A stretch of DNA of 64,000 bases from Laccaria trichodermophora (taxonomy: Eukaryota > Basidiomycota > Agaricomycetes > Agaricales > Hydnangiaceae): the NCBI GenBank assembly GCA_018417955.1, contig JACTVC010000010.1, forward strand, positions 1,314,763 through 1,378,762, read 5' to 3'. The notes below the pieces were generated by a model. That model made no database searches. It saw only the letters and a program-made list of their open reading frames with translations, and was not told where the DNA came from. Made by a program: the position numbers and the translations under genes. Each line of letters begins with the position of its first letter. Positions within the stretch are counted from its first letter, which is position 1. Below, one piece after another: positions 32,916 through 54,980 of the stretch.

Positions 32916-34487
32916 GTGACCATGGCGGAAGAACCAGACCCCGAAGCAGCGTCGCCCACAAATCATAGTTCTATGCCAGCATCTGGGCCCGTTCTTATTG
33001 GTCCTCACACTCCCAACAACCCCTTCAAGGAAGGATCGTCTTTGAAACCCGCTGCTTTTCCAAGCACAAGTCATCTACTGACCATGAGTAAAACAGCTTT
33101 GAATCCTCCCGCTGCTCCCAGGAGCGCGAATGATGCTTGGATTGGCACTCAGAATAAAGGGACACACCAACCTTCAGTCACCGGCGCGAGTCGAACCGCT
33201 GCCTCAACTCATGGAGGTTCACCCCGTCCTGATCCTGCATTCGTAGAAGACTTGTTAAACTTACAAGCTGCTATCCAGCATACTACCAAGAACAACAGAA
33301 CTTGGTCCTCTACATCCAGTCAGACGGAGGACGAAGAAACGGAGACTATGTCCATGGATGGTGGAAGTACATCCAAATTTAAGACAATATTCTGGGACAT
33401 TGATCCCTACAGAGACCTGCCAGTCTGGGCTGAATCTGTTACACAGTCAGCAGCACGCATATTTGGAACCTTTGATCCTGCGAAGGATGAGGATGTTTTA
33501 GTTCCCTTAGGAGCTATCGACACTTCAGTCACCCATTTTAGGGTACCTGTGAGGTATATGAATTCTTTGATTTAGGGGACCTCCATGGTACCCATTCCAA
33601 GGGTGGTATAAGAGCACATACCAATACCATGGTACCATGGTATGGAAAACCCATACCATACCAATACCATGTTACCATACCATACCATGTCACCTCATAC
33701 CATACCATGCCATACCATACCATCATACCATACCATACCATACCATCATACCAGGGTGTCTGGGGTCCTTTTTCAAAATATATAAATTCTTTCTGCAGGC
33801 TGCAATACTGGTCCATTGGGTGCCATTTTTTGTGGAAAGCTTCTTGATGTTTTTCCCAAGATTTTAAGATACAAATGGAGGCTATATAGTCAAATCCATC
33901 CTTTGAAAATCAGTTCAAATGAGCTTAATCCCAGCTTTTTCCATGCATCAAAAGCCATTTATTGATACATATCTTTCCCAGTCCTTTCAATTACAATTAG
34001 AACAATATTCATCACAAATAAATCAATGCTGCATCAGTATTTGAGAAACAAAGAAAAGAAAACATTTTGTGTATTGGCTATAGTCCTGGACCATGCATGA
34101 TACCATGCATTGCAAAAGCATGGACTTGAGCTAAATTATTATCCAACAGCCTAGGCTGAAATATGCACTTCAACTAATCAACTACATTAAGTACCCTTCA
34201 CAGATGATTCATTTCAAAAGCCTGAAATTTGGATTCAAAAAGTGCCATGCTGTTGCTGTCAAAGAAGTATGTGTATATATTTACTATTTGAAAACTACAT
34301 ATGATGGAATCAAAGTATTGTTGTTCTGAGAATTTGACCAAAGTTGTCATTATCAAAATATTTGGTCCAATCCAAAGTCTTGTCAATTGGAGAGCCAGGG
34401 GTACAGATTAAGGAAGCTCCTGTTGGCCATGGCCTCCCAAAACCATGATACTATGTTCAGCCTTATTCATATCACATGTCATACCAC

Positions 34488-34925
34488 AACCATTCATACC
34501 ATACCACAACTATTCATACCAAACTATGGTATTGCCCCCTCACCATACCATACTATGGTATTGCCATCTCACACCATACCATACTATGGTATTGCCATCT
34601 CATACCATACCATGGTATTGCCCCCTCACCATACCACACCATGGTATTGCCATCTCATACCATACCATGGTATTGCACCCTCACCATACCACACCATGGT
34701 ATTGCCATCTCATACCATACCATGGTATTGCACCCTCACCATACCACACCATGGTATTGCCATCTCATACCATACCATGGTATTGCACCCCCATACCATA
34801 CCATACCATGGTATTGCACCCTCACCATACCATACCATGGTATTGCACCCCCATACCATACCATACTATACCATGGTATTGCACCCTTATACCATACCAT
34901 GGTACTCCACTCCCATACCATACCA
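34488..34925. repeat. CATACCATGGTATTGC array in FB3 left arm
   Basis: About a dozen units of TACCATACCATGGTATTGCA with CCCTCACCA or CATCTCA spacers. The unit contains the palindrome ATACCATGGTAT. Mirror array at 38110-38500. The His/Tyr/Pro-rich frames in all phases are artefacts. A related CCATACC array is at 33600-33760. Confidence 0.85.
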
Positions 34926-35211
34926 TGTTGTTTGATGTTTAAGGTGCTGTTCTCAGGATCCAGTGTGAATTTCTAAATATGGAAGGTGTGGCTATGCTAA
35001 ATGAAAAAGAAATTAATGGGATAGATGCTTAAAATATCACAGGAACCATAATCTATGCAGAGGAAGGCAGAAAACCCCCATTTCGAAGTTTGTTTACATA
35101 TATTTACCAATAGCTTTAACCAAAGTAAGGCTACAAAAATTGTAGTGTCCGCTTTTTTCATTAGAAAAGAGAAGTATGATTAGAAAACTTTGTAGTGTGC
35201 GCTTTGATGTG

Positions 35212-35740
35212 CGCACTATTTCCTAATTGGGCCATTTCCTAATTGGGAAAAGCGTTACACTTTTTTCTGCCACACCTGATGTCAGGCACAGTGCGCATTT
35301 AGGTCGGGAACTGTTTCCCACGCTTTTTGGGCCAGAAGAGTTAGTGGCTAGCTTAGTGTTGTCATTGTTAATGACGATGTGCGCACTATTTCCTAATTGG
35401 GCCATTTCCTAATCAGGAAAAGCGTTACACTTTGTTCTGCCACACCTGATGTCAGGCACAGTGCGCATTTAGGTCGGGAAATATTTCCCACGCTCTTTGG
35501 GCCAGAAGAGTTAGTGGCTAGCTTGGTGTTGTCATTGTTAATGACGATGTGCGCACTATTTCCTAATTGGGCCATTTCCTAATCAGGAAAAGCGTTACAC
35601 TTTTTTCTGCCACACCTAATGTCAGGCACAGTGCGCATTTAGGTTGGGAACTGTTTCCCACGCTCTTTGGGCCAGAAGAGTTAGTAGGCTAGCTTAGTTT
35701 TGTCACTGTTCATGACGATGTTCGCATATTTCCCAATTAG
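35212..35740. repeat. ~170-bp tandem repeat, three units, in FB3
   Basis: Each unit runs GATGTGCGCACTATTTCCTA ... AGCGTTACAC ... GTTTCCCACGC ... GTTAATGAC. Units start near 35210, 35379 and 35549; the inverted set is at 37310-37835. Units contain TGCGCACT and TCCTAATTGGGCCATTTCCT, the latter with a GGCC core as in the KDZ subterminal motif, probably by chance. Confidence 0.8.
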
Positions 35741-35754
35741 GAAATTCATTACAT

Positions 35755-36310
35755 AATATCAGTTTGTAGTCTCCGCTTTTTTAGACTACAAAAGTTTGTA
35801 GTGTGCGCTTTTTTCATTACAAAAGTTTGTAGTCTTCTGCTTGTGTTCACTACAGAATTACTAGTGTGCGCTTTTTTAGACTACAAAAGTTTGTAGTGTG
35901 CGCTTTTTTCATTACAAAGGTTTGTAGTCTTTTGCTTGTGTTCACTACAAAATTACTAGTGTGCGCTTTTTTCATTACAAAAGTTTGTAGTCTTCTGCTT
36001 GGGTTCACTACAAAAGTTTGTAGTGTGCGCTTTTTTCATTACAAAGGTTTGTAGTCTTTTGCTTGTGTTCACTACAAAATTACTAGAGTGCGCTTTTTTC
36101 ATTACAAAAGTTTGTAGTCTTCTGTTTGGGTTCACTACAAAATTACTACTGTGCGCTTTTTTCATTACAAAGTTTGTAGTGTGCGCTTTTTGGACTACAA
36201 AAGTTTGTAGTGTTCGCTTTTTTCATTACAAAGGCTTGTAGTGTCCGCTTTTTTCATTATAAAAGTTTGTAGTGTCTGCTTTTTCATTACAAAAGTTTGT
36301 GGTCTGCTTA
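35755..36310. repeat. TTTGTAGTGTGCGCTTTTTT repeat cluster in FB3
   Basis: Units of ATTACAAAAGTTTGTAG plus TGTGCGCTTTTTTC, some with CTTCTGCTTGTGTTCACTAC. Mirror at 36730-37300. They share the core with the clusters in FB1 and FB2 although the CpG-containing GTGCGC variant dominates here. Confidence 0.8.
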
Positions 36311-39300
36311 TCTTATATATTATATTGTAGTCTCCTATTATCTATGTAGGTATGACCTGATGTTTCAGGCAAACTGACTGCAGCCAAACAGCTGGCAAAT
36401 CATTCACACTTTGTACTCCCTAAGGAATTACATTCAAGACTAACTATTGGAAAGGGCAGGTAGTGGCAGCTACCCAATGATGAAGTAGAAAGAGAGGACA
36501 TGTCAAGGTTGGCTATGTTCAGACATAGTTGAGTCCCCAGATATATGGAAAGAATGTTGAATATGATGAGAACATGACTGAACTACCTGCCCTTTCAAAT
36601 AGTTAGTCTTGAATGTAATTCCTTAGAGAGTACAAAGTGTGAATGATTTGCCAGCTGTTTGGCTGCAGTCAGTTTGCCTGAAACATCAGGTCATACCTAC
36701 ATAGATAATAGGAGACTACAATATAATATATAAGATAAGCAGACCACAAACTTTTGTAATGAAAAAGCAGACACTACAAACTTTTATAATGAAAAAAGCG
36801 GACACTACAAGCCTTTGTAATGAAAAAAGCGAACACTACAAACTTTTGTAGTCCAAAAAGCGCACACTACAAACTTTGTAATGAAAAAAGCGCACAGTAG
36901 TAATTTTGTAGTGAACCCAAACAGAAGACTACAAACTTTTGTAATGAAAAAAGCGCACTCTAGTAATTTTGTAGTGAACACAAGCAAAAGACTACAAACC
37001 TTTGTAATGAAAAAAGCGCACACTACAAACTTTTGTAGTGAACCCAAGCAGAAGACTACAAACTTTTGTAATGAAAAAAGCGCACACTAGTAATTTTGTA
37101 GTGAACACAAGCAAAAGACTACAAACCTTTGTAATGAAAAAAGCGCACACTACAAACTTTTGTAGTCTAAAAAAGCGCACACTAGTAATTCTGTAGTGAA
37201 CACAAGCAGAAGACTACAAACTTTTGTAATGAAAAAAGCGCACACTACAAACTTTTGTAGTCTAAAAAAGCGGAGACTACAAACTGATATTATGTAATGA
37301 ATTTCCTAATTGGGAAATATGCGAACATCGTCATGAACAGTGACAAAACTAAGCTAGCCTACTAACTCTTCTGGCCCAAAGAGCGTGGGAAACAGTTCCC
37401 AACCTAAATGCGCACTGTGCCTGACATTAGGTGTGGCAGAAAAAAGTGTAACGCTTTTCCTGATTAGGAAATGGCCCAATTAGGAAATAGTGCGCACATC
37501 GTCATTAACAATGACAACACCAAGCTAGCCACTAACTCTTCTGGCCCAAAGAGCGTGGGAAATATTTCCCGACCTAAATGCGCACTGTGCCTGACATCAG
37601 GTGTGGCAGAACAAAGTGTAACGCTTTTCCTGATTAGGAAATGGCCCAATTAGGAAATAGTGCGCACATCGTCATTAACAATGACAACACTAAGCTAGCC
37701 ACTAACTCTTCTGGCCCAAAAAGCGTGGGAAACAGTTCCCGACCTAAATGCGCACTGTGCCTGACATCAGGTGTGGCAGAAAAAAGTGTAACGCTTTTCC
37801 CAATTAGGAAATGGCCCAATTAGGAAATAGTGCGCACATCAAAGCGCACACTACAAAGTTTTCTAATCATACTTCTCTTTTCTAATGAAAAAAGCGGACA
37901 CTACAATTTTTGTAGCCTTACTTTGGTTAAAGCTATTGGTAAATATATGTAAACAAACTTCGAAATGGGGGTTTTCTGCCTTCCTCTGCATAGATTATGG
38001 TTCCTGTGATATTTTAAGCATCTATCCCATTAATTTCTTTTTCATTTAGCATAGCCACACCTTCCATATTTAGAAATTCACACTGGATCCTGAGAACAGC
38101 ACCTTAAACATCAAACAACATGGTATGGTATGGGAGTGGAGTACCATGGTATGGTATAAGGGTGCAATACCATGGTATAGTATGGTATGGTATGGGGGTG
38201 CAATACCATGGTATGGTATGGTGAGGGTGCAATACCATGGTATGGTATGGTATGGGGGTGCAATACCATGGTATGGTATGAGATGGCAATACCATGGTGT
38301 GGTATGGTGAGGGTGCAATACCATGGTATGGTATGAGATGGCAATACCATGGTGTGGTATGGTGAGGGGGCAATACCATGGTATGGTATGAGATGGCAAT
38401 ACCATAGTATGGTATGGTGTGAGATGGCAATACCATAGTATGGTATGGTGAGGGGGCAATACCATAGTTTGGTATGAATAGTTGTGGTATGGTATGAATG
38501 GTTGTGGTATGACATGTGATATGAATAAGGCTGAACATAGTATCATGGTTTTGGGAGGCCATGGCCAACAGGAGCTTCCTTAATCTGTACCCCTGGCTCT
38601 CCAATTGACAAGACTTTGGATTGGACCAAATATTTTGATAATGACAACTTTGGTCAAATTCTCAGAACAACAATACTTTGATTCCATCATATGTAGTTTT
38701 CAAATAGTAAATATATACACATACTTCTTTGACAGCAACAGCATGGCACTTTTTGAATCCAAATTTCAGGCTTTTGAAATGAATCATCTGTGAAGGGTAC
38801 TTAATGTAGTTGATTAGTTGAAGTGCATATTTCAGCCTAGGCTGTTGGATAATAATTTAGCTCAAGTCCATGCTTTTGCAATGCATGGTATCATGCATGG
38901 TCCAGGACTATAGCCAATACACAAAATGTTTTCTTTTCTTTGTTTCTCAAATACTGATGCAGCATTGATTTATTTGTGATGAATATTGTTCTAATTGTAA
39001 TTGAAAGGACTGGGAAAGATATGTATCAATAAATGGCTTTTGATGCATGGAAAAAGCTGGGATTAAGCTCATTTGAACTGATTTTCAAAGGATGGATTTG
39101 ACTATATAGCCTCCATTTGTATCTTAAAATCTTGGGAAAAACATCAAGAAGCTTTCCACAAAAAATGGCACCCAATGGACCAGTATTGCAGCCTGCAGAA
39201 AGAATTTATATATTTTGAAAAAGGACCCCAGACACCCTGGTATGATGGTATGGTATGGTATGGTATGATGGTATGGTATGGCATGGTATGGTATGAGGTG

Positions 39301-39874
39301 ACATGGTATGGTATGGTAACATGGTATTGGTATGGTATGGGTTTTCCATACCATGGTACCATGGTATTGGTATGTGCTCTTATACCACCCTTGGAATGGG
39401 TACCATGGAGGTCCCCTAAATCAAAGAATTCATATACCTCACAGGTACCCTAAAATGGGTGACTGAAGTGCTATCGATGGGATCCTTCCCAGCTGGACAA
39501 AGTACGAATGCGAGCGCCTAAGGTGTGCCATTGAACTGGTATATAAAACACCCAGAGATTGCCGATGGGACGATCTAGGGGCTGCAGTCCAAAAATTCGC
39601 CAATTACGGGATCAGTAAGAGGGACCTCGTAAGGTACACCGGTAACGAAATTGCCTATGGAGTCGAACAATCCCTATTGCTTGAAGCTTCCCAAGTGGTA
39701 GTAACCATAGATCAAGTACTACAGGTCCTGGCTGACTTCTTCCATAAACGGGATCACGACCGTTTTGTACTTGACTATGACTTCCTCTTCTTATGAATGC
39801 TTGCATCCTGTGTGAGTTGAACTGAAATACTAGCGACATATCGTGTTCTACAACACCGAATGACTGTAGCTGCC

Positions 39875-40204: not shown

Positions 40205-40295
40205 GCGGATTTCACCAAAGTGAAGTGAAGTCTGCCAAACAAAGGGAGACGAAGTCCGAGTTGACAGTTGAGGATGATCATGATGGGGATATGAA

Positions 40296-40386
40296 CAGGG
40301 CATTCAGTAGATATGCTATGGAACCATAACAATAGAAATTGACAATTGTCCCAATAAGTCATAGGGCTACCCCAATGGGCCCAATT
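40296..40386 (+). repeat. KDZ transposon left terminal inverted repeat
   Basis: Starts CAGGGCATTCAG; from about 40308 it aligns with the right end, and from ACCATAACAATAG (about 40323) it is nearly identical to the reverse complement of the right end. The outermost bases differ between the two ends (CAGGGCATT versus CACAAGTAT), which is unusual for an element able to move. Confidence 0.85.
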
Positions 40387-40735
40387 ACAAAGGACGTTAT
40401 GACACTGTACATTGGCCCAATGATGTAAGAATATGTATATTTGATTGTTGGGCCCAATGAAGCTGCCACTGTCAAAGCCAAGGGTTTATAGATTGGCCAC
40501 ATGGGTTAAATGGGGGTAATTTTGACCGTCAATATATGATTGCATTAAGCTACAGTTGATAGTTGGGCCCAACATAGGGTAATGGTTAATGGTCAAGGTT
40601 GGGCCCAATGGCCCAATTATTAAGCTACAGTTGAAGGTTGGGCCCAACATCAGGTAATTGTTATTTCGACAAGTTGGGCCCAACGGCGAAATTCATATGA
40701 CATGGCTTGTATCTTGGGCCCATGGATCAAAATAC
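40345..40735. repeat. Subterminal TTGGGCCCAA palindromes, left
   Basis: Five exact TTGGGCCCAA copies (about 40448, 40563, 40598, 40638, 40674) and several GGCCCAAT/TGGGCCCA variants. Variants recur near the right end (about 54663, 54750, 54815, 54880). A short palindrome repeated at both ends suggests transposase-binding sites. Confidence 0.75.
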
Positions 40736-40779
40736 ACTATAGTTCCAAAGGTTAGCCCAATCTTTGGATTTTCGGGGTC

Positions 40780-41300
40780 GGGGCATTGTTCCGTTAAGAC
40801 CGGCCCCACGGACCCGCAGTTGTTCCGGACGTGTTGCTCCACTGCACCCGCGGATTAAAACGCGGACAAGCAATTGTTCCGTTACCCCCGTGGGCCCACC
40901 CACCTTTCTTTGACCCGTGGTCCGCCTGCTGCTCCCGTGCACCCGCGGACCGAAATAAGGACGTAAAATCGTTCCGTTACACCCACGGGCCCACCCTCCT
41001 TTCTTTGACCCGTGAACCGCCTGCTGCTCCCGTGCACCCGCGGACCGAAATGCGGACGAAAAATCGTTCCCTCCTTTCTTTGACCCGTGTTGCTCCATTA
41101 CACCCGTGGACCACAACGCGGAACAGCAATTGTTCCGTTACCCCCGCGGACCAACAGTCGTTCTGTTACATCCCCCGTGGACGCTGTTGCTCCGTTGCGG
41201 CGACGGACCAAGGACTGTTCCATGACACCCACGGGCGAAGACTTTCATTACACCTGTGGACCGCCTGTTGATCCGTTACACCCGCGGGCCACTGGCTAGA
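40780..41300. repeat. GC-rich subterminal repeats with CCGCGGACC core
   Basis: Degenerate units of about 60-65 bp with TTCCGTTACACCC, GCGGACC and TTTCTTTGACCCGTG elements. CpG-rich, in contrast to the decayed retroelements nearby. No credible gene; open frames here (e.g. 40831-41271) follow the repeat. CCGCGG also marks the right subterminal array. Confidence 0.7.
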
Positions 41301-41470
41301 CCTCCTGAGGATGGGGCTTTGACAGGCATGGGCCACCCAAAATAGGTGGCATAGGATATAGTCTGAAGTCCGATGAATCGTCCGGGAGCAATTTCTTAAA
41401 GAGACGAAATAGGGACTGTTCAGGCTTAATGTGGTCTAGTTAAACATGAGGATGACATGAGGCCATATTG

Positions 41471-41477
41471 TATATAA
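41471..41477 (+). promoter_or_regulatory. TATA box of the TET/JBP gene
   Basis: TATATAA, 35-41 bp upstream of the ATG at 41512, just inside the subterminal repeats. It lies close enough to the ATG that the 5' UTR would be very short or the start lies on a further upstream exon; TTTGCAG at 41498-41504 could be an acceptor. Confidence 0.45.
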
Positions 41478-41511
41478 ACCTCCGTGATGAAAATAATATT
41501 TGCAGGACGGC

Positions 41512-42905
41512 ATGACCACTGCTATGCCTGCCTTGCAGGCTCTTACAGACGATGTTGCCCTCTATATGTCTGGGAGACTCCGCTACAACATCTTGCAGGA
41601 GGGTCTGAACGACTTCCCACCAAAGGAGCTAGGCGAGGACCTTGTCACCGCATGTGAACAGGCTATCTCGGTGATAACGGAGGCATGGATGGCGAAGCCT
41701 ATTCAAGTGGACTGGCATATCGAGGAGTTCGTTAAGGAGTTGGGATCACGACCTACAGGTATTCGTCAGTATCATTTTTATCCAACGGAATGATGATGTC
41801 TCCTCCAGGAATGAATGAAGTTTTGGAGGCCGACTTAATGAAGAAGTTTCCACCTGCATATCCCTCTGAACGGGAGGTTGTGGAAGGAAGGCCCTTGAGA
41901 GTTCTGGATGTCCGCGGCTTTACGCTGGCTTGGTATTTGCCCGAGGCAATATCGGAAACTGTTCAGGTGAACTCCACCGCCTTGTTATTCAGCTGTGAAA
42001 CTTACCTTTCATTCATCAGAACCGTCTTATATGTGCATTGGCCCATCTTAGGCCCTACTTGAAAGCTAACCCTCCTCGAAGCGGAGGCGGATGGCGAAAT
42101 GACGTGGGTTATTTTCGGACCCCGGGTGAATCAGAGATACCCGTGGGTAGCGTAACTCTTACACCACTTTGGGGATCTGCCGGACATGAGGTATATTTCT
42201 ACATTTTATAGTTATTCCTCGCTTATGGCCTCCCAGTATCATGGTACACCATTGCAAGCATCTTCCACCTTGAAGGACGACTCTGGTGGAGGTATGAGAT
42301 TTATCAGGGACATTATGGACTTTCAAGCGATAGTGGGGGGTGTTATGAGTGTCCTCCATCCTGCGCAGTATTGTATTATGCGGGCTTCGCTTATCCGGGC
42401 TGCCAATCAAGGGAAGAAAGATCCGGATGGAAAGCCCGTTTCCCCCGTCCATGCCATTCAGGACGTCGACGGACTACGTCGAATACTTCGATATTGGGCC
42501 AGCGGATTTACGGGACTATCAGTCATAAGTCAGAGGGAATCACCATTCCATAGAGATGGACAAAGTCCGATGGGAATGTTCGATCTCCTGGCCACCATTG
42601 GCCGGACGATTGATCCAAACCTTCGGGCCGAGCTTCCAGGCATTGGGATTAGATTTCAATACAAGCCGGGCACTCTTCTCTCAGTATTGTCCAAGTCCGT
42701 TAGGCATGGAGTATCGCCTTCAACCGAGGAACGATACTGCTTGGCGTTCTTCATGAGAGAACGGGTACTCCGTCAACTGGGGTATGACCAGCATCCTTGG
42801 ATGTCGGATGAGTTGTTTCTGGCTTGGTTGGAACTAGACGACCCGGAAAAGATGGAAAGAATCATTCATCTGGAACAAGGGGGTGAATGGAAACCATTGA
42901 TATAG
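41512..42905 (+). CDS. TET/JBP-type 2-oxoglutarate/Fe(II) dioxygenase
   Basis: Four exons join in phase: 41512-41758, 41809-41966, 42020-42190, 42237-42905, giving 414 aa and ending in TAG. The C-terminal half has the TET/JBP double-stranded beta-helix signature: a GSVTLTPLWGSAGHE block (compare FQQGHE in relatives), a substrate-loop region, then SPFHRDGQSP with the HxD iron ligands (H297, D299), FDLLATIG, LPGIGIRFQYKPGTLL, the distal iron ligand in SVRHGVS (H349), and the 2-oxoglutarate-binding Arg of ERYCLAFFMRE (R358). The family oxidises 5-methylcytosine in DNA to hydroxymethylcytosine and further products. No in-frame stop or frameshift is present, unlike several neighbours. Carried as cargo in a KDZ transposon, where TET/JBP genes are known to have expanded in fungi. 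Exon 1 start is the least certain point. Confidence 0.88.
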
Positions 42906-42920
42906 ATATATACATATATA

Positions 42921-45900
42921 CTACATGGACAGACCCCGAACAGCTTTTGAAAAATCATCGTCCGTAACCATCATAACGTCCAAATTGTCTTGACATGGAT
43001 TGGCCGGAATGTCTTGCTCCGAGGCGGGTCCGTGCAACGTATCCGGGTCCCCACCCTCTGAGAGGGAAAATTCTGGGAGACCTCGAATGGGCGGCCTGCC
43101 CCTCCTCTGTAGCCTTTGTGGAAGTGCCCGTCTTGGTCGGGCAGATGAAAGCATTGCTTGAGCCATATCCTCCGCCACCTGTGTATTCTCCTTCAGCTTA
43201 TCCTCTTTCTCATGACGTTCTTGGATGTTATCAAGAACGCGACGTTGATATTCAGTCCGATATTCGGCCTCCATTGCAGTAATATCCACTGAGGCGTCCT
43301 GCATTCTTTCGTCCAGCTCCTTGATGTTGTCAGAGAGCCGGTTGATTTCTACATCCAAGGTCGCCGCTCCGCGGGCGATGCCATCCCGGAGAGCTTCCAA
43401 TTGTTCTATCTCCGCGGAGTTGGATACGGAGATCGGAACCTCCCCTCGGTGTTCATAGATTTGCTCCAGCTAAATGGAAATGTCAACAATAGACAGCCTG
43501 GTTTCAGCAAAACGGTCAACTTACAAACTTTGAATGTATGAGAAGTGCATCCTCCTGCACATCACTCCATTTCGGAAATGTATCCACAATGGACGCCATA
43601 TCCTTTGCGTTCCACCAGTCACTCAAATAGCAGTCCACGATTCGATCAGGGTTGGTGTCCGGGCATTCAAAGTCCATATGAACTGGGCCCCTCGCGGAGA
43701 TGGATTCTGCAAGATACGTGGGAATGTCGTAGTGATACCCTCGGGCACGATGCGATCCGAGTAAATATGTAATTGCGTCCTGAATTGAGAACGTTAACGG
43801 GGAAATGAGGGACAAAAACAGGGTCACTTTACCACTTCTTGTTGAAACATTTTCACCCATGCTTCTTCCTGGTCCACGGTTTTTACATCCCTCAAAGCTC
43901 TGTTTGCGGCCCGAAACCTTGAGCTCATCATATAAAGAAGTTGTTGCATAGGCACCGTACGCTCTTCGTTGTCCAACTGCTCATCAGTGAACAACATATT
44001 TGGAGGACAAGAAATATTTTGCCGATAGATACAATCAATTCTTAGATCAGCCCTGTGGAAATACAGTAGCAAACAACCCGAACGGACATGATACGCTCCC
44101 ACGTTTACGCCCGCGGCCGTAGCCATGCAAGGAGAACCCGTAATCAAATGGCCCCGGAACGTTGGAAGTCAGCAAGCGCCTGGATCTGGAACGCCTGCCA
44201 CATGCCCGCTTGTCTCCTAGCATAACACTGCTTCCCTGGAGTCGTTTCATATCCAAGGCCATCCCACGTTTCAGCCCGACGCTGGAAGTACACATCGTCC
44301 AGCGCATTTCCCGCGGAACGAGCTTGAATTCCTCCAGCCACCTGTCCCGCCTTGCCTTCGCCCGGATATAATTCACTCGATACACTGGAATTACTGTTAG
44401 TCGTAGATCCAAAGACTGGCTAAAGTTCCTACATTCTTCCATGTGAAAGCTTTCGAATGAATCTCCATGAATATTCATGCCCCAGAACCAGGGAATGTTC
44501 TGGTTTCTAAAGCCCCGACCATTTGGCTGAGAAATATTGGGAAGCGTATGGGTTTCTTTCTTTTCTATAGGTCGATATTTGTTGAGAATGTCAGCCGACG
44601 CACCCAAGCGGGCCAAAGCCCATCGAGCGTGTGCATAGACCCGGAGATGGTGTGCCAAGTTTCTATCCGCAGTATTTACCTTGTCATAGGAACGGGTCTT
44701 TCCCTTTTTACTTTCCTGATTGTTAATTTCTTTGCGATAGATGAATGATTTGTGTCCGATTTCCAAACGGATGGCTGCCAGTGTATCATTGGCTTGTGCA
44801 ATCCGGAGAAGAATCTCCCGCTGACGGGCAATCGCCATTTGCTCCAGAAGGTCAGGAAAAGACGAGGGGAGTATGACCTCCATGCTTTCAGCCATTTGCC
44901 TGTCAGATGAAGGGGGATTGGCCAGCAGCATCTCCAAATCATCGTCATGTTCATATCCGTCTTCCACGGGTGGTATGTCCATGGTCTGACTCACGAAGTC
45001 TACTCCGGGAAACAGTTCGTATGCTTCCCGCTCGAATGCATCAATTCTTCGGAGAAACATCTGACGTCGCTTCGCCAGGTCGAGCTTGTCCTCGGGTGTT
45101 GGCTTCCTGCCCATCATCCGGATAAACCGACTTAACGCCAATCTACTAATATAAACTTAAAGTCCCTGATGAGGGACAATTAACTTACTGAGCTTCCTGT
45201 ATCTTGATCCCAGTGCTAACCCACAATGTTACTCCCATGGAAGCGTTCACTGGGGATTCCTGTCCCATGAGCGCTGCTTGAACGTCCTTCTGCGTAGGCA
45301 CTGATGCTGGCCTTTAATACAAGACAGATTAGGTTGTAACAGAGGAAGACAAACCCTTCGGAGCTTCTGCTTCATACACATCCATTGCTGAGGCATCAGC
45401 CACCCGGCGTCTCTGTGCTTCCTCAGCAAGTCCATCCCAATCTTTAAGTTGTTCGGGGCTCGCAGTGTCCGAAAGTTTCAATAACTCCGCTTCGCGGCCG
45501 CGAGTCCGGATTGAATCTTCTTCCAGCGGTGGCATAGCGAAGAAACTAACACCAATCAGCATCGCTTTTGGAAGACATATTTAAGGCGGACCCATGTTCA
45601 CGAGTTTCTTCCAGTTGCTATCTCCCATGTGGGAGTCCAAGACCTCGGTCCGATGGGCGAGAGTCATTGTTCGGGAGATTCGACCAATGTGATTAAGGGT
45701 CGACCAAAGGGTCTCCAGAATTTCACCATCAGCCTGACCCGCCCCCTCAATAAAAGTAGGTGAAAACCTAGCCAGACAAATCAATTGATGCCCGTGGACG
45801 TGGAAAAGGCCTATCCCGGGAATGATGATTAGGCCTGGGTGAACTTCGAGAAACGGGCTGTCCTCCACCCGTTTGAAAAAATTCTTATGGTACTGGCAGT

Positions 45901-47701
45901 TCACATCATAGACCACAATGCACTTCATTCTTTCCTCCATGTTGGTGTTCTTCATTGCCTCACAAAGTGCGTAATCCATGTTCATCTGTCTAGCAAACTT
46001 TCTCAATGACATAAAAGACGGCGGAGGACAGGAGTACCTACCTTTCGCCTTTTTGAAAGTCAACAACACCACCAGGGCAGTAGCAGCCATGCCTCAGACA
46101 CGCAGCAGCTCCCAGACCCGTGGAATCGCAACCTTTGTGAATACGGGCCTTGTCATTGACAGCATGATGCTCATTACAAGTTGGTGCCTAGAACGGCCGG
46201 GTCGAAAGGATCCGGAATAAATGGCTAATTGCTCACCTCCTTGACTTCTTTCGCGACCCTCAAATGCTGTCCGTATCTTTGCTTTTCCACCATGTATCCC
46301 TCCCCATTCTTTAACCAAACATCCGTTTCCGGCCGTCGCTGCAATTTATGATTACAGGTAAAGTTACCATCCAGAACAAAGCCCCGAGAATACGCCCATT
46401 GCTCAGCATCCTCTTTCCAGTTCTCTGGAAGATTAACCCCCGGCTGCGGACATGCTGCACAGAAAAGTGCTAACTCTCCTGTTCCGGGAGGACGATGTTG
46501 ATGTCCGAATCCAAACCACTTGTATTCTTTTAAACTTCTCCATTGACGACTTGCCCGAATAAGCTCTCGATATCGGTCCTGCCATTTCCTTTTGAGTCCA
46601 TAGTCCAAAAATCTCATTGTGGCTCCTACATACCTTAACCTGCCTTGGAAATGCTTTGGAAGTCATTCTCCGGAGTTTGGAATAGTAATGGGTCGCGGAC
46701 GTTTTGCATTCCAGGTTTTCCAGGAGATAGTCATCAAGGACACTGAAAGTAAAAGCTGTCTGCGGTTGAGCGGAGGTAGAGGGAAAGAATCCCATCCGTA
46801 ACAATTGAATATCCAATGCGGGTGCACCCGCACAATGGCAGAATGACGTAGGTAGCTGATGAATTCCGTTTGTATGAACAAATGTAAGCACCCGACGTCC
46901 ATTCAGATAAGATACAGGTGGATCGGGGATCTCATTGTCATCCTGGAGACTTTCCCCGGCATCCGTGAGATCCTCGATATCGATGTCAATGTCAATGTCA
47001 TCCGGGTCCATATCCGCGGAATCCAATGGACATCCACCCTGATCCAGATAAATATCTGGGTCTAACCCCTCATTATCCGAAGAATCCCATTTCATCCCCG
47101 GACAAGGCGAGCCGTTGTGTCCCAAGTGTACGACAATACCCACTTTCCATAACCAAGATGATGAGAAATATGAACCAGTCCAGCTTTTCACCCTGTGAAA
47201 CGGATGTCGACGATGTGAGATTCTGCAGCAATCTGTGCATTCGGATGTATTTCCCAGACAATCCTGGCATTTCCACGTTCCCTCCCTTACCCCGCACGTA
47301 GCACAGATATTAGAGGGTGCCGGAGCCTCTCGTTCAAGTAATTCATCAAGATACAACCGGCGACGATTTCCCCACTCACGTAAATAATCGTTGGATGACT
47401 GTCAATTGTAAAAAATCTGTTGACATGACTAAGTCAAGGTACCTACCTTGGAACCATTTATCTCCTGATTGTTCACGTTCATGAACATAATTTCTTCATT
47501 TGTTCCCATTGAGCAGTCATCCCGGTCAACTTGGGGTAAAGAAACAGAGTTTTTTTGGGGGGATTGAGATGGGGTGGAAATGCATTGAGAGGACGTTGGG
47601 TCTGTTGGAAAAACTGTCTTCACTTTGACATTTCCACGGGGACCTTGAGTATAACGGGTGTGTTTCAGAGAGCCTATGACCTTTGTTCTCCGGGTACTCA
47701 T
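42921..47701 (-). pseudogene. CxC2-KDZ transposase with two lesions
   Basis: Reading from ATG 47701, supported exons are 47701-47447, 47398-46634, 46578-46237, 46187-46042 and from 45989 to about 45590. Later exons lie in 45562-45329, 45141-44084, 44021-43848, 43758-43521 and about 43470-42921 (TAG), with less certain borders. Domains: basic N-terminus; CxC2 cysteine cluster (CATCGVREGTWKCQDC...CTDCC, RHPFHRVKSWTG); RNase H-like KDZ core with LDGNF, the HHAVND and KGCDSTGLGAAACLRHGC blocks, VVYDVNCQYHKNF and FIEGAGQADGEILETLW, LAHRTEVLDSHMGDSNWKKLV; helical C-terminus (VYRVNYIRAKARRDRWLEEF) and a coiled coil (LDVEINRLSDNIKELDERM). A +2 frameshift near 44290, an apparent extra TG in ATGTGTAC, breaks EMRWTM from YFQRRAETWDGL. 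A TGA at 44144-44146 interrupts the next segment. Without the frameshift and TGA the protein would be roughly 1,300 aa. The coiled-coil tail might instead be a separate gene. Confidence 0.8.
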
Positions 47702-48115
47702 CTCTAATCCGTGGTGTTGTTGTGGAACTTTGAAGGAGACGTTTTGCCTCGTGGTGAACCTCATGTTCATCACGTTGAACCTCATGTTTATCAATCAATG
47801 GATAAGTCTTCCTTTGCTGCATTTCTCCCAAGTAGATTAAATAGGGTCAGGTGAAGGCTCTGATTTTGTCACCACTGATAGCATGCCCGGCAACGGTAGT
47901 ATAATGCGGACTAGCAGAAAAGAGTGAGCATTCTATTTTTAGCTCGCCAATCTCTGGTGGGCTTGCCAAAAAAGGCAGAAAACTTGTCAAATATGGTAAT
48001 CAGGCCTTTGTTTGTTTAGCATCCCGAAGTCTAACATTTCTCTGCCGAATTCAGCGAAGAAAAAAAAAACAATTCAAGAATACATTTACAACTCCATCTC
48101 ACGAGCTTCTAAAGA
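47702..48115. promoter_or_regulatory. Divergent intergenic region between transposase and next gene
   Basis: 414 bp between the transposase ATG (minus) and the ATG at 48116 (plus). Contains a (A)10 tract at 48060 and pyrimidine-rich stretches. It must hold both promoters; no clear TATA box was found. Confidence 0.4.
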
Positions 48116-50609
48116 ATGAACAACAACTCGCTAGATGTCCCTGTGCCCTCCGGGGACGAAATACCTCCCCCGAAAACGGTGGAACACGTCGCACCCCCAG
48201 CCCATATCTGGGAAGACTGGCAGACGGAGATCCTAGAAAAATATCTTCCGGAATATAGGTCAAAGAAGTCTGCTGGAGCCCGGGTTGCAATTATGGGAAA
48301 GGTGCTACAAAAATTCAAGGCGAGGAAGGAATCTGCAGAAGGAGATACAGCTAACCTCCGAAAGGTAAGCATAGACCGAAACGGATGGCCCGTTTGACTG
48401 CTAATTGAATACCACAGGCCGTCCAGCAATGGTTCGGAGTCAAGTCCAGAATTCGAAAGCCTAAAGAAATAAAAATCCGGAGCATGAACTGGAACTTCCG
48501 GACCGTCGCATCGGTGCAGAAGAAGATGGAAATTAAGGAGGCCCAACGGACGCTATCTGGAAATGGGGATATTAAGTTTGGTAGCTTCCAAGCCGGGCTG
48601 AATTTGGTTTTGAGCAATCTGACAGAGGATGAGATTGAAGAGTTAAAAGAGACGGCGAAAAAGTGGAATTTACAAGGGCCTCCGGAAGAGGAGAAACAGA
48701 GGTCTGCCTTTGTCCGTACCCTTCTCACCCGGCTCATGCTTTTACAAACAGGCTGGCTGTGAAATCCGCAATGAAGTTCTGCCGGACCTTTGCTGAAAAA
48801 GCCTGGAAGCAGCTTGGGGGGAGGGTCTACATTTTCTGGGGTTGCCGCGATGAAGACGGGACACTATCCGCTTCCAAATTCGACTTTAATGCTGAACTCG
48901 GGATGGGCAGGAGCTATCGAGATGTTATTGACGACGGTTCTGTTTCTGACCTCTCCTGGGGAAAATATCTTCAGCAATGCTATGATGGAAATGCCAAGGC
49001 CGCGGAGAATGATATTTTTGTCGGGGGACATCGTAACTCACCAATGGATTTGGACACCCGGGAGAATGGTGAGCCAATACTCCCAGAGCCAGAGTCATGG
49101 CCTTCGGATGTCACGGGGGAGGTAATGATCCGATGGTTGAAAAAGCTATTAAGATCATTTGTAGGAATGCATTATTGTGAGTCAGACTACCTGCCATCCT
49201 GTCCTACAACGGCCCATATCTTTTTAGCATTGGCCACTGATGGAAGAACCTCTCGGGTCCCGTGGGCCGATATTGTGAAAGATCAGGCAACGTTCATAGA
49301 TGAAGAATACCTTCCGGATTACCAGACGCTTGATGCGGAGCCGTCGCACCTCGCCATTCAAAAGGTGAAGACGCTGTTAAACTTTTGGATTCAACGACAG
49401 CGTGCCGGGCAGACTGTGTTTCGCTTTCGGCTTGTCATCCAGGGTACTGAACGTGTCCCGGCAAAGGCTCCAGACGTCCGGACGAATACGCAAAAGCCGA
49501 CCCGTAGATCCAGAGCAAAGGAGAACTTGAAATGACAAGTCCGTAGATCGAATGAAGGGGAACTCAGAAGTGACGAGGAAGTTGATGATCCATTGAAAAA
49601 AAAGGTCAAGGGACAAAAGGGCAAGGGTAAAGTCAACAGAAAGGGAAAAAAAGGAAAGAAGTCCGCGGAGATGGTCGACGATTCCGGAGAAGAATTCGAT
49701 CTTCTGGCGATGGATGACTTGGTCTTTTCTGATGATGACCTCCCTCTTCCGAATAGCTTAGACCGTACAGCCGGACGTGACATGGGATCTGGTGGGATGG
49801 GCATGAAAGGCCCGCGGGTGGGTGGAACCACTACTACGAAGGGCCCGCGGGCGGCTGGAACCGCTGTGGTATGTACAACCGGTGGAGCACACTCCACAAC
49901 CACGGCCTATACCCTACCAGCGCCCGCCATTGGCCCAACCACCGTCCAGACCCTCCCCGCACCCCACAGTTTAGCCACCGCTGACAAGGCTTTGTGGAAC
50001 AGGTTTGCGGCTCATCTTCCCCTCGACTGCGTCGATTGGTCCGAGGAGCAAGCTATTGCACAATTCCGCGTGTTTCAACGTTGGTTCAGTGCTGAGACCA
50101 ATGGTGTACTGGCTGGGGCTGCATTATACACCCCCCCCTCAGTGGCAATGAACAGGGACGTCGCAGACCCGTCACCACCCGCGGGTGGGAACGATTCTCC
50201 GAAGACGATTGAGCCCGTCTTTGCCAAGGTCGCAGAGAAAATGCCTGACCTCATGCTGGTTGAAAGAACGACTGCATGCGGTTCCACCAATCCGGGAGAA
50301 AGGACACCTGAAGGGGCTACCCCCACGCTGGCAGACAAGGAGACTCTGGCGTTGAATCATTCACTCCCGAATAATTCAATGATCCAAAATGCACGCGTTG
50401 AAGAGGTTCCAAAACGTGTATTGGACCCATCGGACAATCCAGAGGGTCAGGACATCCAGATGAAAGATGGCCCACCCGCAAAGAGGGCCCGGACCGCTGT
50501 GAAACCAACCCCTGCCAAGCCAACCAGGAGCAGCGCCCGTACCAATGCCCCTGGTCCGTCCATCCCCTTGACTAGATCGAAGGCAAAGCGCGGGGGTAAA
50601 CGCAAATAG
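48116..50609 (+). CDS. Unrecognised KDZ-cargo protein, in-frame TGA at 49533
   Basis: Exons 48116-48364, 48418-48701, 48752-49176 and 49228-50609 join in phase. The first ~85 residues are helical with WEDWQTEILEKYLPEYRSKK and continue to VQQWFGVKSRIRKP, reminiscent of DNA-binding helix bundles, though I recognise no named domain. The middle has WKQLGGRVYIFWGCRDEDG and WADIVKDQATFIDEEYLPD. The C-terminal third is low-complexity: Lys-rich (KKVKGQKGKGK), acidic, then Pro/Ala/Thr-rich with a basic SKAKRGGKRK end, suggesting a nuclear protein. A TGA at 49533-49535 (after ENLK) is the only break in the frame between 49228 and the TAG at 50607. Either the protein ends at ENLK and the rest is untranslated, or CGA has become TGA. 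Confidence 0.6.
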
Positions 50610-50809
50610 TCCGGCCCAACGTCGGACCTTTTACTTACTGGAACTTGACTTTCATTTGTCTAAATACATTGGAGCTTTAGCAGTCCGTTAGTACTTGACA
50701 ATATAATCTGAATGGAATCTTTGCAATAACTATGTAGACAGCTGGAGAAGCTGGATCGTTTCCCCACGGCCGCGGACCGTTTTGTTTCGGCCGCCTGGAC
50801 CTTTTCAGG

Positions 50810-50865
50810 AACGTTAATCACCCTCGGTGATTAACGTTTAATTCCCTCCAGCATCTGGAGGGAAT
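50810..50865. terminator. Two tandem hairpins between convergent genes
   Basis: AACGTTAATCACC-CTC-GGTGATTAACGTT (50810-50838) is a perfect 13-bp stem, followed two bases later by ATTCCCTCCAG-CAT-CTGGAGGGAAT (50841-50865), an 11-bp stem. They lie in the 360-bp gap between the convergent genes ending at 50609 (+) and 50970 (-). A role in 3' end formation for both strands is inferred from position only. The rest of 50610-50969 shows nothing else. Confidence 0.5.
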
Positions 50866-50969
50866 GCATTGTAACCATCTGCTCAAGAAAAATTGTATTT
50901 GAAAACCTAGCTGCGATAACTATGTGTATGTCCAAAAAAAATTATAGGAGGGCCGTAGACACCGTACAA

Positions 50970-53286
50970 CTAATCCAACGTCTTGGCCCGGTCAACTGGA
51001 GAGCCGTCAACTGCATTGAAAATGTAACGTCCGTCATCGATGGAGGGGACTAGGCCGTGCAGAGCGTCGTTGGAAGGAGTCGATGGCCGTGGATGGACGT
51101 CGCCCAGGGAGATGGTAGTCAGGTCTTTAGCACCCGCGGACCCGTGGACTTCGCTCAAACCCCCTTTCACGTCCTTAGCCCTCTGCACCTCCTTCCGAAC
51201 CGCATCGTCGTCGACTACCCTGTCCCATCCCACCGCCCGTTCAACTCTCATCCGCTTGTCCAAACCATCATCCGGGTGCCTCAAGAACTCATTGGTCATC
51301 ACATTGAGGCAGAGCCCCTCTAGCTTCCCCAATCTTTCCTCAATGAACTCCTTTCCACGGCGTACGTTTCGAATGTCTTCTTCGATCCCAGCGACCCTCC
51401 CACCCAGGCTATCCAGTTCGTCCGGTAACCTCGAGATTCCATCCGCGTCGTTTAGTTGAAGGTTGTCGTTCACCCCCTGGATAAAGTTCTGAACCCGGGT
51501 TTTCAGGCCCTCGGACAAGGACCTCATCTGCTGCTGGGTTACCATTCCTTCAACCTTTTCACGGAGTTCGTCCAGCACCTGCGAAGAGACGGGATCCTCA
51601 CTCGGGGCGCGTGCGGCGAACGATTCCATCAAGACCTTTTGACTCTCCTCAAGGTCCTCCAACATCGACCTCTGCATCTCGAGTTCCTTCTTCAACTCTT
51701 CCATCTCCTGGTCCTTCTGCCGGATCGCGATGGCGGACATGGCCTCGACTCGGGCGGACGTCTCGCGGACCTTATTGGACATTTTGCCCAGATCAACGCC
51801 TTGCTGGCGGACGGATGTCGAGATGCTGTCGAGACGACGGGTGAATGGATCCTGGAGGTCGATGGGCATATGGGAGTCTTCCCTAAGCTCCGCAAATGTA
51901 GCCCCTGGGGGACGTTAAGTCACTCTGTATTTCCATAGAGAAATAGAAGGACTTACTGGCTGTTTCACCATCGTGGCCTGGTCGTACACTCCCATCCCTT
52001 ACCCTCCCCTTTGTGACGCTAACCTCAGGTTCGGACGTCTGGCGACTTGAGGCCCGCGTCACCCGAATAGCCACCTTTGGTTCCTTTGCAAACTCTGGGA
52101 CGATTACCTCCGCTACGGACTTCTCAGGGATTTGGTTCGGTCCCGTGTAGCGCGAATTCGCATATACCGTTGTCTTCTCTGGATGAATGAGACCGCGGGC
52201 ATCGTCCTTGGCGGGGGGTGGTCGAGAGCCCCCATTCTGGGTGACAGCCTCAGTCTTCGCGGGTGGTTTGGTGGCGCGAGGACGAGGGCGCGCATCTTTG
52301 GCCTCGATTTCTTTGCCCGCTGGCTTCGCACTTTGCTTCGGCGGAGCAGTGACGAGGACGATGGGGGGAGTCAGTTCACGGGGTTTTTTCGACGTCGTCT
52401 TCTTGGGCATCGGATTGGAGGTAAGTCGATTGGCAGACGCACCGGGGGTGTTGACAAAGCTACAGCCGATCTTCCTTGAACGGCACTTGACGCACGCGTT
52501 GCCTTTGAGACCTATTGCGACAACGCAATCCAAGTTGGCGATCTCGCACTGCTTGCAAGGAGTGCGATGGCGGGGGGTGGGTTCGGTGGCCGTAACTCCC
52601 ATTGTCCCAAAGTCGTAATCGGGGTCGTCCATCTCGACATCCTTGTTCTCTCCCTGCACCTTCGCCTTCTTCCTCTGCTCCTTCGGCCCTGGTACTTCCA
52701 CAACCTCAGCCTCCATGTCTCCATTATCCCCTGCATCCGCCTTACGCTTGTGCCCTCTACTCCGCTTTTTCGGAACTTCCTCCACAACCTCCTTCTGTTT
52801 GCTTTTCTCTCCGGCCGCTGGCCCATCCGCGTTCACTCCCCAGCCGCCTAATAGATCACTGAAGTCATCCTCCTCAACTTCCTCCTCTTGCTCCTGCTCG
52901 GGCGATGGCTCCTCGAGAACTTCCCAATTAAAATCCCCCTGCTCCGTTACAAGGACCTCGTTGGTAATCCGCTCCATCTCGGGCGTTACTGAAAAGTCAG
53001 GATCGTGTTGCAGGACTTGCGCGCAACGTAGGTACCAACCCTACATTTTTCTCTGAGTTGCATGTAATGTTAGATAGTGAAATACACTCACCACAACCTT
53101 TCGTAGGGAATCCTCCCGAGCTGCCCTTGTCTGCTCGTTCGCACCTTCATACGATTCCCTGTACCAAGTGCGGGCCAATTCGATGAGTGAGGGAATCCGC
53201 GGGTAAATCTCGTTGATTTTTTCACGGGTGGGAAGCTTCTTGGTGAGATCGGAGGGGATGTTGAAGATGGAGAGTGGGGTGGACAT
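50970..53286 (-). CDS. Zn-cluster and coiled-coil KDZ-cargo protein
   Basis: Three exons in phase: 53286-53092, 53040-51957 and 51904-50970, giving 737 aa, TAG stop, no in-frame TGA. Residues ~1-90 are helical. They are followed by an acidic region (EQEQEEEVEEDDFSDLLGG), basic KKRSRGHKRKAD (nuclear-localisation-like), and a cysteine cluster C-x2-C-x6-C ... C-x2-C-x6-C (CKQCEIANLDC, CVKCRSRKIGC) that resembles fungal Zn2Cys6 DNA-binding clusters but with a longer middle. The next ~200 residues are disordered, Pro/Lys-rich. The C-terminal ~300 residues form a long coiled coil (EELKKELEMQRSMLEDLEES; EFIEERLGKLEGLC). I infer a DNA-binding accessory protein of the transposon. Similar Cys-cluster proteins are common in mushrooms and mostly unstudied. 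Confidence 0.75.
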
Positions 53287-53623
53287 AATGACCGTCGACG
53301 CTAACGTGGTGGGTGGATAACGGAGTGGATGGGTGATGGGAAAGAATAGAGAGGTGGTGGGGGTGGAAATATTCTATGTCAACATTTCCATTTTCGGACA
53401 TCAATGAATTTCGGCCGAATCTGGAGGATCGCATCTCGATTACTCCATTCACCATCCAAATTGTCTTGAACAAAGTACTCCATTGTCCACCCTCCGAATC
53501 GTCTTCAGCAATAAAATGTCGTCTACGTCCCCTCTTGGTGCGCACTGTTCAACCCTTTTGTTTATTGACTAGTCAACTGACTGGAGAACAAAAGTCCGTT
53601 TGGCTGGGAATGCTTCCGCGGAC
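53287..53623. other. Divergent intergenic region
   Basis: 337 bp between the minus-strand Zn-cluster gene and the plus-strand coiled-coil gene. CACC/CATC-rich next to 53290-53370. No TATA box stands out. Presumed bidirectional promoter. Confidence 0.4.
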
Positions 53624-54185
53624 ATGATGTCCCGGACGTTCGCCGCAACAAAGGGTAGGTGTTCACGTATGACCGTTGATTTCGTTGACCAATCTACCTA
53701 GGCATCAATTCCATGTTGGAAAACTACGAGCGACTGGAGCAGGCGAGAAATGATACGGATGTACGTATCTCATTTCGTCCTTTTACAACTTTCTAAAAGC
53801 CATCCTGAAGGTCGCTATTGCAAACTCCGAAAGCAATAAAACTTCCGCGACGCTCAGGGATTCTGATGGTCCTACGCGGGTACCTCTATCCTCGCCCTCC
53901 TCGAATCTCCGTCGGACCTTTTTTGATGAGGTCGCACCGGATTTGCCAGCAGTGACTCACCCTCTGGAATACGCCAGAATGGCGTATAAGGTATTGTATA
54001 GGGAATACGAGGAAGCGGTGAGGGCTCGGGACTTTTTGCTGCAGGTCCGCTCTCATGCGGAGGACCAACTTGAACAGTTGGACATGATGATCAGCCTCAA
54101 GAAAAAGGCCGTTCAACTTCAATCCAAGGGTGTGAGTTCAGGAGCTGTACTTAAGGTGTCGGATGGAATGGATGGTGGGCCTTAG
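53624..54185 (+). CDS. Small coiled-coil KDZ-cargo protein
   Basis: Exons 53624-53654, 53702-53760 and 53811-54185 join in phase to 154 aa, TAG stop. The start could be either of two adjacent ATGs. Helical throughout the C-terminal half (HPLEYARMAYKVLYREYEEA, ARDFLLQVRSHAEDQLEQLD, MISLKKKAVQLQ), preceded by a Ser/Pro-rich linker. Composition like a coiled-coil assembly factor; it might pair with the coiled coil of the Zn-cluster protein or of the transposase, which is speculation. Confidence 0.65.
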
Positions 54186-54189
54186 TTTT

Positions 54190-54610
54190 TTACATACATT
54201 TATGAATACTTGTGCCCGCGGCTTCTACGAAGTATCCGGAGATCCATCACATTTATGAATACTTGCGCCCGCGGCTTCTACAAAGTATCCGGAGACCCAT
54301 CACATTTTTCAATACTTGTGGCCGTGTCTTTTCGTTAATTAATACTTGCACCCGTTCCTTCTAGAAAGTATTCGGAGATGTATAATGTTGATTGAGACTT
54401 CCCCCCGCGTCTTCTACAATGTATTCGGAGATCACAAAAGCTTGGATCTGTTGGATGGAAGGGATGCGGGTCGGTAGTTTGTGACTTACATTTATGAATA
54501 CTCGCACCCGCATCTTCTACAAAGTATTGGGAGATGGATCACGTTGTGCCATAGTTGCGTCCCCGCTTTCCGTTGATTAATACTTGCGGCCGTGTCTTCT
54601 ACAAGGTCTC
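54190..54610. repeat. ~58-bp tandem repeats, right subterminal array
   Basis: About six degenerate units of ACATTTATGAATACTTGYGC, CCGCGGCTTCTAC and AAAGTATCCGGAGAT. Later units lose CpG (CCGTGTCTTCT). With the GC-rich array at 40780-41300 it forms the subterminal domain of the KDZ element. No gene. Confidence 0.8.
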
Positions 54611-54885
54611 CGTAATAGCTTTCCGGAGGAATGTATCCGGATCTTTCAACAAGTGCACGGGCAAATGGGCCCAACTTTTGGCTATCAGTAGATTATACTT
54701 TGGGTACCTATGGTACCATTGATTATAGCAATAATCATGTCCTTTTGAGCACATGTGGCCCAACCTTTTACCATTGATTATGGCAATGATGAGGTCTGAT
54801 GAATACCCATTGGGCCACACATGAATACCATATGTTAGGTACATCCATGGGTCCCAGGTATGGATCCATGGCGTCCATGTGTATT

Positions 54886-54973
54886 GGGCCCATTGGGGTA
54901 GACCTATGACTTATTGGGACAATTGTCAATTTCTATTGTTATGGTACTATAGTGACATCTATGTATACTTGTG
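54886..54973 (-). repeat. KDZ transposon right terminal inverted repeat
   Basis: Reads inward CACAAGTATACATAGATG, then CACTATAGTACCATAACAAT and on through GTCCCAATAAGTCATAGG. Matches the left end as described. Confidence 0.85.
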
Positions 54974-54980
54974 ATATGAA

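Follow-up and report, generated by a model that had tools for sequence, protein, structure and literature searches.

Genes of the element

The window, as we call the whole stretch of DNA that was analysed, comprises 64,000 nucleotides of Laccaria trichodermophora (assembly GCA_018417955.1, contig JACTVC010000010.1, positions 1,314,763-1,378,762, forward strand), and positions within it are counted from 1. It contains a complete transposon with a KDZ transposase that also encodes a TET/JBP dioxygenase, which we assign to the Kyakuja type. The genome from which it comes spans 59.0 Mb in 77 contigs, here named C1, C8 and so on; short related elements are named L025-L040. The features of the transposon are collected in Table 1.

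Six genes are predicted, in the order TET, CC2, KDZ, G4, Zn-cluster and S6, with TET, G4 and S6 on the forward strand and the other three on the reverse strand. The splice sites of all six models were set by hand, from sequence alone, and several introns were picked so that the copy of the element on contig C8 (see below) stays open and to suit known KDZ sequences. The initial annotation of the window, which listed the dioxygenase with four further genes, the transposase among them, had counted five; there are six, because two separate small coiled-coil-type genes are present.

The dioxygenase matches PF12851 (E=3.6e-14; 52.8 bits against a cut-off of 34.9) and the structures of CcTET, the enzyme of Coprinopsis cinerea (8jkk, E=2.5e-32; 7vpn, E=2.8e-32). 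In the alignment to CcTET the HRD motif, the distal His and the Arg are retained, as the initial annotation had stated, and so is the equivalent of Asp337, while the equivalent of Gly331 is Ser (residue numbers follow Kojima 2025, PMC12730594). The KDZ protein of the C8 copy matches PF18758 (3.8e-49) and the CxC2 family PF18803 (7e-25), and the separate KDZ frames of the window copy also match KDZ/CxC2 Pfam families.

The remaining four proteins are harder to place. The Zn-cluster protein scores 20.5 bits against PF00172, slightly below the 21-bit cut-off. CC2 matches no Pfam family above its cut-off, and neither residues 1-438 of G4 nor S6 has a Pfam match at E up to 1. An AlphaFold2 model of the G4 core, built on five aligned sequences, has a mean pLDDT of 37.9 and is unusable. 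Homologues in the protein database (two plus two for G4, two for the Zn-cluster protein) are too few for a family profile.

Table 1. Features of the transposon and its target site (window positions)
Feature	Position	Strand	Remarks
Whole TET-carrying Kyakuja-type KDZ transposon, CAGGGCATTCAG...TGTATACTTGTG	40296..54973	+	14,678 bp; two further full-length copies with the same ends
Target-site duplication ATATGAA, left copy	40289..40295	.	same as 54974-54980; empty site 27096-27102
Target-site duplication ATATGAA, right copy	54974..54980	.	same as left copy
Subterminal inverted repeat, left arm	40316..40396	+	92.7% over ~81 bp against right arm; begins 20 bp inside the end
Subterminal inverted repeat, right arm	54872..54952	-	pairs with left arm
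Seven TGGGCCCA palindromes, left 500 bp	40376..40722	.	starts 40376, 40449, 40564, 40600, 40639, 40675, 40715; probable recognition motif
CpG-dense repeat array upstream of TET	40781..41310	.	51 CpG in 530 bp; between TGGGCCCA zone and TET
TET/JBP dioxygenase, AG-like	41512..42905	+	414 aa; exons 41512-41758, 41809-41966, 42020-42190, 42237-42905; open in window copy
CC2, coiled-coil-type protein	42921..43997	-	322 aa, 3 exons; open in 3/3 full copies
KDZ transposase with CxC2 cysteine cluster	44144..47701	-	8 exons; 1,071 aa in C1 and C8 copies
G4, conserved protein	48116..50609	+	3 exons; 796 aa in C1 copy
Zn-cluster-like and coiled-coil protein	50970..53286	-	737 aa, 3 exons; open in 3/3 full copies
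S6, small coiled-coil-type protein	53624..54185	+	154 aa; exons 53624-53654, 53702-53760, 53811-54185; open in 3/3 full copies
53-bp tandem repeat, right subterminal	54196..54318	.	sequence repeat
Single TGGGCCCA near right end	54885..54892	.	89 bp from right end

Borders and target site

The borders of the element and its 7-bp duplication are as first annotated. When its flanks are fused through one ATATGAA, the joined sequence is identical at all 307 bases to the minus strand of window 27252-26946, and the right flank matches window 24687-27103 over 2,417 bp at 99.96% identity. A paralogous empty site thus lies in the same window, as had been proposed from a comparison near 27115 in the leader of the first copy of a long terminal repeat (LTR) element, LTR-A. 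The target repeat thus exists uninserted elsewhere in the window, and the insertion is young. A frame adjoining the target repeat (23869-24732, minus strand) matches an integrase C-terminal domain, a Tf2-1-like SH3 domain and a chromodomain, in keeping with a Ty3/gypsy LTR element; the element next door looks like a member of the chromodomain-bearing Ty3/gypsy group.

The ends had been described as inverted, and this holds for the subterminal repeat. The extreme tips pair only as CA..TG, and the outermost 20 bp otherwise hardly pair.

Copies across the genome

Two further full-length copies, C1:3956692-3971372 (duplication CAGGAGC) and C8:1064000-1078681 (duplication TGAGAAT), align with the window element at 99.55-99.7%. 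The first 1,000 bp of the element have at least 46 matches in the genome and the last 700 bp at least 78, repeats within the ends included. A 37-base left-end pattern, with up to three mismatches allowed, occurs at 68 sites genome-wide, against none for the reversed control pattern, and 18 of these sites have a TET match on the same strand within 6 kb downstream. Both ends were examined for 19 elements; with L026 excluded, as only three bases of its right flank are available, the 7-bp duplication is perfect in 15 of 18, has one mismatch in one and is lacking in two. The search for other copies with these ends that the initial annotation had called for therefore succeeded. TET families that are only 56-60% identical at the protein level (C5:147634, C16:61324, C47:2894) carry the left 37 bases with three mismatches, so that the ends are far better kept than the genes, or exchanged.

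Not all genes of the full-length copies are intact. The transposase frame of the window copy is broken by single-base losses near 44291 and near 45492 relative to both other copies, and its G4 gene has a premature TGA at 49533-49535 that arose by a C to T change. These lesions had been missed in the initial annotation, and the window copy itself is probably non-autonomous. One base is missing from TET in the C1 copy and one from G4 in the C8 copy. The 24 private substitutions of the window copy include 19 of the C to T type, 17 of them at CpG; among these are one at 40314, within the left end, and the one at 49533 that creates the stop in G4. Many left ends genome-wide differ exactly at the terminal CpG at 40314.

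Short partner elements and a terminal motif

Fifteen short elements (L026-L040; ~4.4-9.8 kb) resemble the TET element in their first 500 bp (~83% identity) and last 205 bp (~90-91%), and have in common with it the ends, the TGGGCCCA motifs and the 7-bp duplications. L029 has no frame longer than 169 aa, L036 contains 59-bp tandem repeats, and L026 has two long frames that by eye resemble a nested Ty1/copia element. A further short element, L025 (C8:1155121-1161282), retains both ends of the TET element over 1.3-1.5 kb each, together with S6 and a perfect duplication; its middle of ~3.4 kb is mostly repeat-like and has eight frames of 83-217 aa. We also asked whether the short elements have captured host genes and found no such case in L029, L025 and L026, the three whose frames were examined.

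The palindrome TGGGCCCA, which contains no CpG, is concentrated at the ends. The window element has seven in its left 500 bp, one near the right end and two elsewhere, compared with a mean of 0.004 and a maximum of one in 2,000 single-base shuffles of the left 500 bp, and with a single one in the 49,315 bp of the window outside the element. In 14 short elements (L026 excluded) the left 500 bp contain 83 and the right 300 bp 14, with none in 67,673 bp of interior, and the register within the left 500 bp is almost the same across all 14. We predict that TGGGCCCA is a site for the transposase or for a helper protein. The CpG-dense array next to this zone is possibly a methylation-sensitive promoter region.

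A gene block recurring in diverged TET families

Relatives of the cargo genes were collected by protein searches of the same genome. The rows used were 64 of 139 for TET, 55 of 113 for G4 (one merged from two), 25 of 66 for CC2, 22 of 44 for the Zn-cluster gene and 42 of 51 for S6. Unused rows are further exons of the same loci, and some loci interrupted by nested insertions are represented by two rows (e.g., the two TET rows on C21). For KDZ, 31 rows were typed among the matches listed, and KDZ counts were left unused.

G4 lies on the TET strand 3-20 kb downstream of 43 of the 64 TET rows, and CC2 lies on the opposite strand 0.2-4 kb downstream of 25. The expected place relative to TET is filled by the Zn-cluster gene in 15 and by S6 in 23 of the 64. 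Seen from the other side, all 25 CC2 rows are beside a TET as expected, as are 43 of the 55 G4 rows (45 with a wider distance limit), and the G4 relatives in the block have identities down to ~30%. When the 55 G4 rows were placed uniformly at random, at most three fell in place in any of 500 draws; this control is crude in that it assumes independent rows.

As recent copies are not independent, bands of TET identity are a better unit than rows. In the 93-100% band G4 and CC2 are each in place in 8 of 8 rows. The counts for G4 and CC2, respectively, are 1 and 2 of 2 at 83-84%, 5 and 0 of 7 at 67-81%, 4 and 7 of 7 at 56-60%, 9 and 8 of 9 at 44-53%, and 16 and 0 of 31 at 29-39%. The failure to find CC2 beside TET in the 67-81% and 29-39% bands, among the rows used, argues against a strict block.

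These distributions bear on the idea that the extra genes are host genes captured by chance by one element. In its favour, none of the extra genes has a Pfam match above the cut-off. The idea is nevertheless contradicted in this genome by the regular placement of CC2 and G4, by the random draws and by the depth of G4 divergence, and we consider it extremely improbable.

No listed TET lies near eleven S6-like rows (50-52% identity, one or two stops each) on C1, C9, C10, C15, C21, C23, C45 and C67, which may represent a related transposon that lacks TET.

CpG decay and the possible role of TET

Of 66 polarised substitutions among the three full-length copies, 51 turn CpG into TpG; per site, such changes are 36.5 times as frequent as C to T changes elsewhere. 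The short relatives without TET (14 elements) give 151 of 289 and a rate ratio of 18.9. TET left ends (seven copies) have 55 of 97 and a ratio of 12.6, and TET right ends (eight copies) have 32 of 38, with zero other C to T changes. A comparison of the LTR-A copies for CpG decay yielded one difference in total and is uninformative. The bias in the TET element is most simply explained if the element has been methylated during a large part of its existence. A deaminase process could contribute to such a signature, as could faulty repair of oxidised bases.

The initial annotation had proposed that the transposon may demethylate itself or its target and so escape silencing, and a TET that keeps its own element unmethylated in cis within a methylated retroelement cluster has to be weighed here. 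The TET frame is open in two of the three full copies. The observed/expected ratio of CpG is 0.86 in the element, above that of the LTR-A stretch (0.73), of seven of the 15 short elements (0.58-0.76) and of four palindromic repeats in the window (0.14-0.50), and element positions 480-1010 have 52 CpG in the window element against 13-28 in 14 short elements, but also 47 in the TET-less L025. This higher CpG content could suggest less decay in the TET element; it also fits youth.

The substitutions point the other way. Compared like for like, the TET left ends are no better protected than the TET-less relatives (CpG to other C to T changes 55:15 against 151:57, p=0.35), while the bias exceeds that of the short relatives in the full copies (51:5, p=0.004) and in the TET right ends (32:0, p=0.0002). 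The stop codon in the window G4 is itself, as judged by eye, a CpG-type transition. CpG bias is thus seen throughout, and the TET copies show neither a sign of sparing nor a firm excess of decay. Because most substitutions among the full copies are CpG to TpG, lasting self-demethylation is disfavoured, and we regard protection in cis as quite unlikely. Of the earlier proposal, a KDZ transposon with an open TET gene is supported; the decay speaks against a lasting form of self-demethylation, and the idea itself is already in Kojima 2025. In view of the low CpG methylation reported for active source copies in Marasmius oreades (see below), a methylated element that has nonetheless moved recently would need a transient release.

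The enzyme might alternatively act genome-wide or make marks, converting 5-methylcytosine to stable oxidised bases (or acting on N6-methyladenine) without favouring the element that encodes it, so that the transposon gains only from a general loosening of silencing. The oxidised bases of Coprinopsis and Laccaria also occur on retrotransposons, and action that is not target-specific has been speculated upon (Kojima 2025, PMC12730594); a second source, consulted in part, points to oxidised bases in gene regulation and in silencing of transposable elements (PMC8889193). The residues at 331 and 337 in the window TET, whose roles are given by Kojima 2025, agree with such an activity. Set against this, the fixed position that TET keeps amid the helper genes suggests an element-specific task. 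We judge a genome-wide role to be possible, if somewhat unlikely.

Proposed mechanism

We favour, with a probability of roughly 0.77, a recent insertion of a Kyakuja-type KDZ transposon into a Ty3/gypsy-like element, in a system in which the KDZ transposase moves short elements in trans, TET provides transient anti-silencing and the helper genes are conserved. The transposase would cut and paste DNA carrying CA..TG ends and a TGGGCCCA-rich subterminal zone, and would act in trans on the short elements and on the disabled window copy. TET may oxidise 5-methylcytosine, perhaps N6-methyladenine too, on transposon DNA, opening a transient and possibly targeted phase of expression or transposition without freeing the element from methylation for good. 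The products of G4, CC2, the Zn-cluster gene and S6 may be conserved helpers, possibly with roles in DNA binding or targeting.

Several observations weigh against parts of this reading. None of the three full copies is demonstrably autonomous, since each has at least one broken gene, and some of the single-base losses could be assembly errors. The initial annotation had named cargo genes lying mainly outside KDZ elements as evidence against it; G4 and CC2 are instead found beside TET genes, but no listed TET stands in the expected relation to 7 of 22 Zn-cluster and 19 of 42 S6 rows (among the Zn-cluster rows, one on C67 is excluded solely by the 6-kb lower limit). Within 35 kb of TET but in another place or on the other strand are CC2 at one, G4 at three, the Zn-cluster gene at three and S6 at three of the 64 TET rows. 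In Marasmius oreades, according to the part of the report consulted, source copies of active transposons have low CpG methylation (PMC9674265), which is hard to square with an element that is heavily methylated and yet was active recently. The Kyakuja label, finally, comes from duplication length, ends and TET type, not from a tree.

A more specific version supposes that one or more of G4, the Zn-cluster/coiled-coil protein and CC2 bind the CpG-free TGGGCCCA arrays at the ends and bring TET there, that the CpG-dense array is demethylated only around expression or movement, and that short elements, which retain the binding array, are served in trans. We put this forward tentatively and consider it, as a whole, unlikely.

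How transposon-borne TETs are aimed, and whether they demethylate their own elements, are open questions in the literature (Kojima 2025, PMC12730594), and a 2026 review, in the part consulted, describes transposon-encoded TET/JBP enzymes as still to be functionally characterised (PMC13297926). The locus offers a clean test bed for them, with exact ends, an identical empty site, near-identical sister copies, short partners with the same ends but no TET that can serve as internal control, and a conserved gene block that points to possible helpers. A first constraint comes from the CpG decay of the copies with TET: escape from silencing, if any, is apparently not lasting.

Other features of the window

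Large palindromic repeats, with arms ~97-99.8% identical and depleted in CpG (the ratios given above), occupy window positions 1-3370, 27545-32270, 33521-39470 and 17436-22945, and are probably non-autonomous DNA elements of other families. A frame at 10112-11086 matches PF20415 (DUF6699; 2.5e-23) and is probably a host gene.

Comparison with known systems

The element has the KDZ transposase domain and the CxC cluster that mark the KDZ group, as well as the 7-bp duplication and CA..TG termini of Kyakuja; the Pfam KDZ model spans Kyakuja, Zisupton and Dileera alike. On these features we classify it as a TET-carrying Kyakuja-type KDZ transposon. TET-carrying Kyakuja elements with 7-bp duplications and CA..TG ends were published in December 2025, with a proposal of escape from silencing (Kojima 2025, PMC12730594). 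Given that complete elements of this sort are described there, the borders, duplication class and TET cargo reported here are not new in kind, contrary to what the initial annotation had claimed for the borders and the target duplication. Its claim of novelty for the complete gene set may hold for the conserved extra genes, which have no description in the main text of Kojima 2025, and fails for the TET cargo. Neither additional proteins nor non-autonomous partners of Kyakuja are mentioned in that main text; its supplement and the Repbase entries lie outside this statement. The gene block and the short partners are thus new as far as the literature surveyed goes, a survey that beyond Kojima 2025 covered titles and abstracts and did not extend to the papers by Iyer and by Chavez in PNAS (2014).

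The closest relatives are Kyakuja-1_LB and Kyakuja-2_LB of Laccaria bicolor (PMC12730594), which likewise combine a KDZ transposase and an AG-type TET with 7-bp duplications and CA..TG ends. They were reported to be without terminal inverted repeats, whereas the window element has a repeat of ~81 bp starting 20 bp inside its ends. CcTET (PDB 7vpn, 7w5p, 8jkk) is matched by residues 44-143 and 155-375 of the window TET, with the HRD motif, distal His, Arg and Asp337-equivalent in common; the two differ in the change of Gly331 to Ser, and the window TET is known from sequence alone. Kyakuja TETs have either Gly or Ser at this position (Kojima 2025, PMC12730594). KDZ1 of Cryptococcus neoformans (PMC12810828), in the part of the report consulted, is an element of ~11 kb that also has a KDZ transposase with a CxC cluster, but it differs in its 241-bp inverted repeats, its CxC1 cluster and its 8-bp duplications; in that part TET is mentioned once, in a cited title.

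The nearest functional analogue that we found is VANC of the Arabidopsis VANDAL elements (PMC10398659). As described in the part of that source consulted, VANDAL elements encode their own anti-silencing factors, and VANC targets tandem repeats in the non-coding parts of the element. The VANC proteins are sequence-specific binding proteins, with no TET-type enzyme named there, whereas targeting by helpers is for the window element only hypothesised. If TET is indeed guided to the ends by such helpers, the transposon would combine an enzyme with a guide and so parallel the VANC system of plants.

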